Part shown: piece after piece, positions 28,199 to 30,678 of the stretch | How positions within the stretch are numbered: position 1 is the stretch's first letter | Layout of the letters: each line of letters opens with the position of its first letter | Assembly: GCA_035314825.1 (NCBI GenBank) | Contig: DATFYX010000067.1 | Coordinates: 1-58,181 of the forward strand | DNA length: 58,181 bases | Direction of reading: 5' to 3' | Source of the DNA: Candidatus Eremiobacteraceae bacterium | GTDB taxonomy: Bacteria > Vulcanimicrobiota > Vulcanimicrobiia > Eremiobacterales > Eremiobacteraceae | Made by a program: the position numbers and the translations under genes | The notes under the pieces: generated by a model | What the model was told of the DNA's origin: nothing | Database searches by the model: none | The model's input: only the letters and a program-made list of their open reading frames with translations

Positions 28199-29281
28199 CT
28201 AGTGTCCGACGATAAGGGAACGAGAGAACACGCCGACCCACGACGGCTCGGTGGTCGGCTGTTGCGATCTGCTCACCACGTAGAGATCGCCATCTGAAGC
28301 GCCCGAAGCGACGCCGGCGACGTACGCTCCGAGATTGGCGTCGGTGCCGGCGATCAGGCGGATAGGAACCGCGTTGCCGGTCGCATTGGGCGCGTAGACG
28401 GTGATGCTGCTGCTGCCGAAATTCGTCACGTAGATGTAGCCGGCCGCGTCGACCGCGACGCTTTGCGGCACGTCCAAACCGGTCTTGTCGCCGGTGATCG
28501 TTCGCTCGGGCGCGGCGTCGCCGCTGGCCCCCGGCGCGAAGACGATGATGCTGTCGATGCCCAGATTCACGCGCCCGCTATTGACGACGAACAGATCGCC
28601 GTGCGGTCCGACCGCCAGCCCGAGCGGCGTATCGAGCGTCGTGCGCGACCCGGTGATCGCCCGCACCGGCGTCTCGTCGGCAGCAGCGCCCGGCTTGTAG
28701 ACGGTGATGGAGTTCGGCGCATTGACCATCGCGCCATAGTTCGAGACGTAGATGAAGCCGCGCGCGTCGAAGGCCACTGCCTTGGGCGTGACGATATCAT
28801 TGGTGATGTAACGCAGCGGAGCTACGTCGCCGTTCGCACCCGCCGCGAAGACAAGCACGCGGTCTTGTCCGAGGACGCTGCTGCCTGCGCCGCTCACGCC
28901 GGCGTTCGCGACGTATAAGATTCCTGCGGAATCGACCGCCAGGCCGCCGGGCCGCGTCAGTCCGGTACGCCCTCCAGAGATGGTTCGCGCGGCAGCGACG
29001 TCGCCATTCGCGCCGGCTGCATACACCGTGACGCTATCTTGTTTGGATGCGAGGTCGCCGTCGTTTGACACGTACACCGCGCCCGCGGAGTCGACGGCGA
29101 CACCGCTCGGCCACAGGAGGCCGGTCATCGCGCCCTTGATCGTGCGCACCGGCGTCACGACTTGGTCGCTCACGTCGGCGGCTGTGGCCGGCACTCTCGA
29201 ATCGAGCGTGACAACGGCCGCCGAACAGGCAGCCGCGAACGCGAAAAGCGTAGCGCGCCGGCGCATAATGGCTCGTCTCAT
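28199..29281 (-). CDS. Exported NHL-repeat beta-propeller protein
   Basis: 360 residues with an N-terminal signal sequence (about 8-34). Six or so NHL-like repeats follow, each with the pattern 'P.G.AVD.AG..YV.N' followed by 'SITVYAPGA.GD..P.RTI.G': for example WPSGVAVDSAGAVYVSNDGD, RPGGLAVDSAGILYVANAGV and VPQSVAVDAAGYIYVTNFGS. It is a likely six-bladed propeller outside the cytoplasm; no catalytic residues are visible and the ligand is unknown. Its ATG overlaps the final TGA of the peroxiredoxin gene (ATGA), so it depends on ribosomes that have read through the whole peroxiredoxin frame. Confidence 0.85.
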   Translation of the reverse strand: MRRAIMRRRATLFAFAAACSAAVVTLDSRVPATAADVSDQVVTPVRTIKGAMTGLLWPSGVAVDSAGAVYVSNDGDLASKQDSVTVYAAGANGDVAAARTISGGRTGLTRPGGLAVDSAGILYVANAGVSGAGSSVLGQDRVLVFAAGANGDVAPLRYITNDIVTPKAVAFDARGFIYVSNYGAMVNAPNSITVYKPGAAADETPVRAITGSRTTLDTPLGLAVGPHGDLFVVNSGRVNLGIDSIIVFAPGASGDAAPERTITGDKTGLDVPQSVAVDAAGYIYVTNFGSSSITVYAPNATGNAVPIRLIAGTDANLGAYVAGVASGASDGDLYVVSRSQQPTTEPSWVGVFSRSLIVGH

Positions 29282-29736
29282 CGGGTTCCCGGTTCGTGCT
29301 CCGCGCCGGAAAGCCCCGCGAGTATCTCGTCGGTCTTTGGAAAACCGCGCTCGTAGAATGCGATGCGGCCGTCTCTGCCGATGCCGACGACCGTGCGGTC
29401 GATATAGCGAAATGGACCGAAGCGTTTGACCGCATCGTACTGCGCCGACACCTTCAAGTCTCGATCGCTGAGCAGGCGCGCGGTGAAGCCGTGGCGCCGC
29501 CGAAAGGCACGGTGGGAGCGGACGCTCGCGCCATTGATGGCGAAGACGTCCACACCCGCCGCGGCGTACCTGTCCGCATCGCCGCGCACGGCGGCGAGTT
29601 GAATGTATCAGCCGAGGGTGTGGTCCAAGACGTAGAAGATCAAGACCGCGCGACTGCGCGTGAGCACATCCGACAGCGTGACGGGGACGCCGTCCTGGTC
29701 GGCCAGGGTGAAGTCAGGCGCTTGCCGGCCGACCAT
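29278..29736 (-). CDS. Peroxiredoxin with in-frame TGA at the peroxidatic position (candidate selenoprotein)
   Basis: Read as one frame from ATG 29736, the product has 152 residues, with an in-frame TGA as codon 43 (29608-29610). The frame is a PrxQ/BCP-like peroxiredoxin: VGRQAPDFTLADQDG, then FYVLDHTLG just before the TGA. In homologues FYPKDDTPG is followed by the peroxidatic Cys, so the TGA is exactly at the catalytic position. The conserved Thr three residues earlier is kept, and the downstream half (LLSDRDLKVSAQYDAV, YIDRTVVGIGRDGRIAFYERG) is intact. No Cys occurs elsewhere in the protein. A SECIS-like hairpin follows. The gene starts 7 nt after ku and overlaps the NHL gene. Selenocysteine is the best reading; a nonsense-mutated pseudogene is the alternative. 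Confidence 0.78.
29579..29597 (-). promoter_or_regulatory. SECIS-like hairpin after the peroxiredoxin TGA
   Basis: On the coding strand TCGCCGC-CGTGC-GCGGCGA forms a perfect 7-bp stem with a 5-nt loop. The loop starts 17 nt after the TGA and has G as its second base. That agrees with the bacterial SECIS description: a small apical loop with G in the first two positions, roughly 16-37 nt behind the UGA. Confidence 0.6.
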
Positions 29737-29743
29737 AGGCGCG

Positions 29744-30604
29744 CTACGCGCGCGCCGCGACCTTCTTCTTAGCGTGACCGTTCGAAGCGCTCTTGGCCTT
29801 GCCATTGGCGGCAACCGGCCGCTTCTTGGCGCTCTGCTTGAGGCTCTCTTGAAGCACATCCATGAGGTTGACGACGTCGGTCGCGGGTTTGGGCTTGGCG
29901 GCGGCTTTCGCGCGCGTCGGCTTGCCCTTGGCGCGCGCATCGATCATGGCCATCATCGCATCCCGATAGCGGTCGCGATACTCTTCGGGCTGGAACTTGC
30001 CGGCCATCGTATCGATGAGCAGCTTGGCGGCTTTCATCTCGCCGGCCGAGACTTTCTCTTTGGACGGCGGGAAATCGAAGTCGGCGGCGTCGACGATCTC
30101 GTCGGGGTAATGCATGAGCTCGAGCACGAGCGCGTCGCCGTTGGGCTTGAGCGCGCACAGGTACTCCTTGGTGCGGATGACGACGCGGGCGATGCCGACC
30201 TTGCCGGCGCTGGCCAATGCATCGCGCAGCAGCGCGTACGCGTGGCGGCCTTTCTTCTCCGGCTCGAGATAGTACGGCTTGTCGAACAGGATGGGATTGA
30301 TCTCGGACAGATCCACGAACTCGGTGATGTCGATCGACTGCGTGGCCTCGATGCTCACGCTCTTGATGTCCTCATCCGTGATGAGGACGTAGTCGCCGTC
30401 ACCGACCTCGTAGCCCTTGACGATGTCGTTCCACTCGACTTTCTTTCCGTCGATCGCGCAGACGCGCTGGAAGTTGATGCGTCCTTTATCTTTCTTATGG
30501 AGCATGTTGAAGTGGATCTCGTTCTCGCGGACTGCGGTGAACAGCCGAACGGGAATCGTCACCAATCCGAAATTGATCGAGCCGTTCCAGATCGCGTGTG
30601 CCAT
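29744..30604 (-). CDS. ku: Ku protein, non-homologous end joining
   Basis: 286 residues, homodimeric ring protein that binds DNA ends and recruits ligase D. The N-terminal Ku core is clear: AHAIWNGSINFGLVTIPVRL, INFQRVCAIDGKKVEWNDIVKGYE and SIDITEFVDLSEINPI. It is followed by a Lys/Ala-rich C-terminal tail (KPTRAKAAAKPKP and AKKKVAARA) typical of bacterial Ku tails that contact DNA. The ATG at 30604 is chosen; an upstream in-frame start would only add a non-conserved stretch. No ligD is in the window. A -10-like TATAGT (complement of 30627-30632) lies upstream. First gene of a ku-peroxiredoxin-NHL unit. Confidence 0.95.
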   Translation of the reverse strand: MAHAIWNGSINFGLVTIPVRLFTAVRENEIHFNMLHKKDKGRINFQRVCAIDGKKVEWNDIVKGYEVGDGDYVLITDEDIKSVSIEATQSIDITEFVDLSEINPILFDKPYYLEPEKKGRHAYALLRDALASAGKVGIARVVIRTKEYLCALKPNGDALVLELMHYPDEIVDAADFDFPPSKEKVSAGEMKAAKLLIDTMAGKFQPEEYRDRYRDAMMAMIDARAKGKPTRAKAAAKPKPATDVVNLMDVLQESLKQSAKKRPVAANGKAKSASNGHAKKKVAARA

Positions 30605-30678
30605 GGCTTCCAGTCCCCTCTCTTCTACTATACTTCCCATCGGCACCGAACGTGTGCTCCATCACAGGCCGGGAAGGA

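Follow-up and report, generated by a model that had tools for sequence, protein, structure and literature searches.

Selenocysteine (Sec)-containing peroxiredoxins (Prx) with a TxxU active site have been on record since 2006 at the latest (PMC1794560; GOS survey PMC2398784; review PMC13188914). They are defined by a T/SxxU motif whose U aligns with the peroxidatic Cys (PMC1794560), and the longer motif PxxxTxxU, a usual trait and not a requirement, has been called highly conserved in the review PMC13188914. As Sec peroxiredoxins are already known, an in-frame TGA in a gene of this family is by itself no surprise. In the animal Sec-glutathione peroxidases, a different thioredoxin-fold family that uses GSH as reductant, it has already been proposed that Sec replaced Cys and made the resolving Cys dispensable, which was then lost (PMC8614756). 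No bacterial Sec peroxiredoxin without a resolving Cys stood out in our search of the openly accessible literature, and no report of selenoproteins or selenocysteine in Eremiobacterota was found in the literature searched.

Here, we describe an apparently unreported, divergent lineage of the known Sec peroxiredoxins, found in a stretch of 58,181 nucleotides (contig DATFYX010000067.1 of a Candidatus Eremiobacteraceae bacterium, assembly GCA_035314825.1), hereafter the window.

A peroxiredoxin frame that continues through an internal TGA

The gene (prx) and its internal TGA are located as follows:
29278..29736, minus strand: gene for a Sec-containing PrxQ/BCP-like peroxiredoxin, 152 residues plus a stop TGA at 29280-29278, with the ATG at 29736
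29608..29610, minus strand: internal TGA, codon 43, read as selenocysteine at the peroxidatic position (TLGU), with TGA in four genomes and a Cys codon in the Cys homologues

The first-pass annotation, which gave no strand, had described a single continuous frame broken only by a TGA at codon 43, in a protein with no other Cys. Both statements were borne out by the minus-strand translation of 29736-29278, which with the TGA read as Sec gives 152 residues (MVGRQAPDFTLADQDGVPVTLSDVLTRSRAVLIFYVLDHTLGUYIQLAAVRGD...GTR) and contains no Cys codon. TGA is normally a stop codon, and with this reading the gene yields just a 103-residue fragment starting with GTG, so that prx would probably be overlooked by automatic annotation. 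The Pfam domain AhpC-TSA (PF00578) spans the internal TGA, from residue 2 to residue 126, with an E-value of 1.1e-23 and a score of 84 bits compared to a cut-off of 26. None of the NCBIfam cut-offs was reached by the window prx, including that of PrxU (NF040737), of which it is not a member and which it matched weakly over residues 2-79 (E=5e-7, 29.6 bits for a cut-off of 270). The terminal TGA, codon 153 of prx, is taken as a true stop, as the homology stops near this point and the gene of a genome of the same genus, G001, ends at a TAG a few codons earlier.

Active-site residues

The comparison set was obtained by a search of 198 related genomes and of GTDB contigs, and the alignment located four further active-site positions:
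29629..29631, minus strand: Val36, replacing the motif Pro (PxxxTxxC to VxxxTxxU)
29617..29619, minus strand: Thr40 of the TxxU motif, kept
29593..29595, minus strand: Ala48, replacing the PrxQ resolving Cys (Cp+5, five residues after the peroxidatic Cys)
29395..29397, minus strand: Arg114, kept, the catalytic residue conserved in peroxiredoxins, which is Arg in every Prx row that was extracted correctly

The alignment with Cys homologues, together with the AhpC-TSA match, places the TGA at the peroxidatic Cys of PrxQ/BCP proteins, as had been proposed; this column is Cys in 39 of the 39 Cys homologues placed in the tree. The suggested check of codon 43 across homologues returned Cys or Sec with a single exception, a Ser in one remote homologue (L034), so the column is not absolutely Cys/Sec. 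The active-site Thr is retained as Thr40, in agreement with the first-pass annotation, and TLGU fits the T/SxxU definition. However, the claim that the rest of the family pattern is undisturbed does not hold, since the motif Pro of PxxxTxxC, normally near-invariant, is Val36 and the resolving Cys of PrxQ is Ala48. This joint loss in the Sec forms had gone unmentioned.

All four Sec forms (the window gene, G001, G015 and G082) have Val at the motif-Pro position, whereas Pro is present in all the other Sec and Cys alignment rows and in every Cys homologue examined. At Cp+5, the four Sec forms present Ala, Ala, Asn or Ser, and none of them a resolving Cys; a Cys is found there in most Cys homologues aligned, being absent from L028, L029 and L035. 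One locus (L101) was excluded from the motif alignment and the tree, the wrong segment having been extracted automatically, and its Sec motif was read directly. The window protein is like the described bacterial TxxU peroxiredoxins in its AhpC-TSA fold, in a Sec placed three residues after Thr, in a candidate SECIS-type hairpin and in having widespread Cys homologues, and unlike these PxxxTxxU proteins in the Val that its clade has for Pro and in the absence of a resolving Cys.

Conservation of the TGA and origin of the Sec forms

The TGA is found in the same column in G001 (72% identity), G015 (53%) and G082 (54%), which are all Eremiobacterota and independent assemblies, G001 (contig JAFAKE010000035, Candidatus Eremiobacterota) belonging to the same genus as the window genome. 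A motif search with TGA in 117 genomes of the class gave exactly four Sec carriers, one of which is the window genome. Three relatives with 41-49% identity (G099, G116 and G025) have Cys in the TGA column, and the nearest Cys relative has TGC. Compared with G001, the window gene has a dN/dS of 0.27/1.47 upstream of the TGA and of 0.23/1.30 downstream, i.e. about 0.18 on both sides, which indicates that purifying selection acts equally on the two parts. Close relatives, in which frame damage was to be looked for, present none and carry the TGA.

These data bear on the possibility of a decaying peroxiredoxin pseudogene, or of a sequencing or assembly error, with a TGA fallen at the catalytic codon by accident. 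A change from TGC to TGA, Cys to stop, takes a single base, and two other normally conserved residues have been lost as well; but the TGA occupies the same column in four independent assemblies from two families, the dN/dS of about 0.18 is maintained downstream of it, the frame is otherwise undamaged and the genome holds the full Sec machinery (see below). We consider both decay and error very unlikely.

In the tree, the Sec forms make up one clade (support 97/93) nested within the Cys forms. The nearest neighbour of this clade is G099, which has Cys, the motif Pro and the resolving Cys, the branch that joins them being weaker (96/72). Because the Sec clade sits inside the Cys forms, the simplest history would be one Cys-to-Sec switch that coincided with the loss of two residues, the resolving Cys and the motif Pro, and that may have taken place at the orthologous locus adjacent to the thioredoxin reductase gene (trxB) described below.

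Selenocysteine machinery and other selenoprotein genes

The search for the Sec machinery that had been suggested found selA, selB, selC and selD, all intact, in the window genome, which is 97% complete. The tRNA-Sec (selC) scores 76 bits and has the anticodon UCA, selA scores 522 bits, and selD, on contig C1, 380 bits. SelB has its C-terminal winged helix and reaches 305 bits with its neighbours in frame; selA and selB overlap on contig C66, and selC lies about 3.5 kb from them. A strong tRNA-Sec is present in the four carriers of the Sec-Prx. Among the Cys carriers, it is present in G099 and G116, and G025 and G086 are without one.

At least three further genes of the window genome have an in-frame TGA at classic Sec positions, a count that is a lower bound as the selenoprotein genes were sampled by family search (FdhA, AhpC-TSA). 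One is a formate dehydrogenase alpha (FdhA)-like gene (L112, G000:C1:102610-105360), in which the UGA lies in the classic Sec site ENQARIUHSS and is followed by a perfect hairpin; individual stretches of the protein score below the NCBIfam FdhA cut-off. Another (L069/L097, G000:C1:11308-11700) encodes a second, canonical Sec PrxQ with the motif YPKDHTSGUTNEASQF; in this HTSGU family, with relatives in G006 and G080, the Cp+5 Cys is absent too and the motif Pro is retained. The third (L101, L103; G000:C88:26105-26911) has an AhpC-like domain with FTEGUTIEA (TGA) in the same frame as a TlpA-like domain with FFASWCAPC, and is a candidate two-domain exported selenoprotein, judged from its sequence, with a relative in G010.

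The machinery and these genes also speak to the reading of the TGA as another amino acid, for instance Trp through a general code change, or as a regulated truncation after 42 residues. Sec-free readthrough exists in principle, with no pointer to it here. On the other side, the homologues have Cys in the TGA column, the window genome has SelB and a tRNA-Sec whose anticodon is UCA, the remaining in-frame TGAs observed there fall at known Sec sites (FdhA-like, PrxQ), and prx itself terminates in TGA. Recoding as another residue or a regulated truncation is accordingly held to be just as improbable as decay or error. The selenocysteine peroxiredoxin put forward in the first-pass annotation is supported by the TGA in four genomes, the purifying selection, the Sec machinery and the other selenoprotein genes with TGA.

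Two further groups were observed during the search. A Prx-like group with TGA in YRGHWUPFC or a similar UxxC motif comprises L064 (Burkholderiales), L072, L073, L074 and L076, several of its members being from Eremiobacterota of the same class. In addition, a tandem fusion of two Prx domains (L075, genome G187) has an in-frame TGA at both catalytic positions (FTGGUTAELQ and FGRGUTLQVC).

The hairpin downstream of the UGA

A compact hairpin follows the UGA:
29579..29597, minus strand: candidate SECIS hairpin UCGCCGC-CGUGC-GCGGCGA, 7 bp, with G at loop position 2, then U

The bacterial SECIS model has a loop of 3-9 nt, a stem of 4-16 bp, a G at loop position 1 or 2, a spacing of 16-37 nt and an energy of at most -7.5 kcal/mol (PMC13188914). 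The compact hairpin begins 10 nt past the UGA, with its loop CGUGC 17 nt from the UGA, and agrees with this published model, but so do 100% of the synonymous recodings of the window gene, and across four genes the loose published model accommodates 82-100% of recodings. With a strict definition, the hairpin survives in 38% of the synonymous recodings of the window gene. The z-score is only -0.9. A strict hairpin with a loop starting CGUG also occurs in G001, G015 and G082, i.e. in four of four Sec-Prx genes compared to none of the four Cys homologues tested; the strict test is passed by all four selenoprotein genes found in the window genome and by about 6% of random in-frame positions in the window's genes.

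No covariation was seen in the hairpin among the compared sequences, and Rfam gave no relevant match. In G001, the compact hairpin differs from the minimum-energy fold. Another, longer hairpin, with its loop GGACAG at 32 nt from the UGA, likewise agrees with the model in the window genome, where it is of lower energy, and is not conserved in G001. A SECIS-like hairpin is present at the right distance, as had been noted, and fits the model, but it had been given too much weight, since it does not exceed the expectation from synonymous recoding. As a GC-rich gene is expected to form such hairpins under recoding, the hairpin is weak evidence, and as independent proof of Sec it was rejected, synonymous recodings forming such hairpins too and covariation being absent.

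Genomic neighbourhood

The prx gene is tightly packed between two genes on the same strand:
29744..30646, minus strand: gene for Ku (NHEJ), immediately upstream and separated by 7 nt from the prx ATG (PF02735, E=1e-49)
28199..29281, minus strand: NHL-repeat beta-propeller protein gene, directly downstream, its ATG overlapping the prx stop (ATGA)

Both the ku-prx and the prx-NHL adjacency are retained in G001. G015, G082 and G099 share one location of the gene, flanked by an epimerase/DUF1731 gene and by trxB. In the window genus prx adjoins ku, not trxB; a trxB, 65% identical, is present in the window genome. The ku and prx genes are probably on the same transcript, and the tight packing of ku, Sec-prx and the NHL gene (28199-30646) points to a possible co-expression of DNA end-joining and peroxide defence.

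Predicted fold and proposed mechanism

The AlphaFold2 model presents a confident PrxQ fold, with a pLDDT of 94.6, and the structures closest to it are PrxQ/BCP and the 1-Cys AhpE. With PrxQ/BCP proteins (PDB 5enu, 3drn and 5epf), the window protein shares a phmmer match (E=7e-12), a predicted-fold TM of 0.83-0.87 and the catalytic Thr and Arg; it differs from them in having Sec for the peroxidatic Cys and no Cp-x4-Cr pair. Mycobacterium tuberculosis AhpE (PDB 1xxu), described as a 1-Cys Prx, has a similar fold (TM 0.87), but is a Cys enzyme.

From the sequence, the homology, the TGA conservation, the machinery, the synteny and the tree, we infer Sec insertion, a peroxidase activity and the reductant as follows. 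SelB, Sec-tRNA(Sec) and the hairpin just after the UGA would decode codon 43 as Sec. The selenolate, placed by Thr40 and Arg114, would then attack the O-O bond of the peroxide, and an external thiol would have to reduce the resulting Se-OH directly, as the protein has no resolving Cys or second thiol anywhere. The most likely reductant would be thioredoxin/TrxB, considering that trxB stands beside the gene in relatives, that the window genome has a trxB and that no BshC- or GshB-type gene was found. Bacillithiol and GshB-type glutathione were rejected as reductants on the same ground, neither the bacillithiol gene BshC nor a GshB-type glutathione synthase being found in the window genome.

Alternatively, Sec could be inserted in a protein that is not mainly a peroxidase, for instance a redox relay or sensor, or a factor linked to repair and expressed together with Ku. 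The missing motif Pro and resolving Cys, and the position of prx between ku and the NHL gene in the window genus, are in line with such a role, but the protein retains the peroxidatic-site Thr and Arg and has a PrxQ fold, and orthologues adjoin trxB; we find this alternative rather improbable.

Discussion

A Sec peroxiredoxin of the PrxQ/BCP type, with Sec decoding, reduction by an external thiol and one Cys-to-Sec switch accompanied by both losses, is highly probable on the comparative evidence. Against a firm reading stand the missing motif Pro, the unexceptional hairpin, ku instead of trxB as neighbour, and the Ser of L034. The proposed course, a gain of Sec with loss of the resolving Cys, would be like that of the animal Sec-glutathione peroxidases. 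It is conceivable, although we lean slightly against it, that with Sec in place neither the resolving Cys nor the motif Pro was needed any longer, so that a PrxQ fold came to hold a one-selenol catalyst resembling the glutathione peroxidases.

For Eremiobacterota, a little-studied phylum, the data add a complete Sec-decoding gene set and no fewer than four selenoprotein genes, of which we found no earlier report. Furthermore, orthologues occur in one and the same setting, from the epimerase/DUF1731 gene to trxB: the Cys form of G099 has the Pro and the resolving Cys, and the Sec forms of G015 and G082 have neither. Such a Cys/Sec orthologue pair allows a test of whether the resolving thiol and the motif Pro cease to be necessary when Sec is present.
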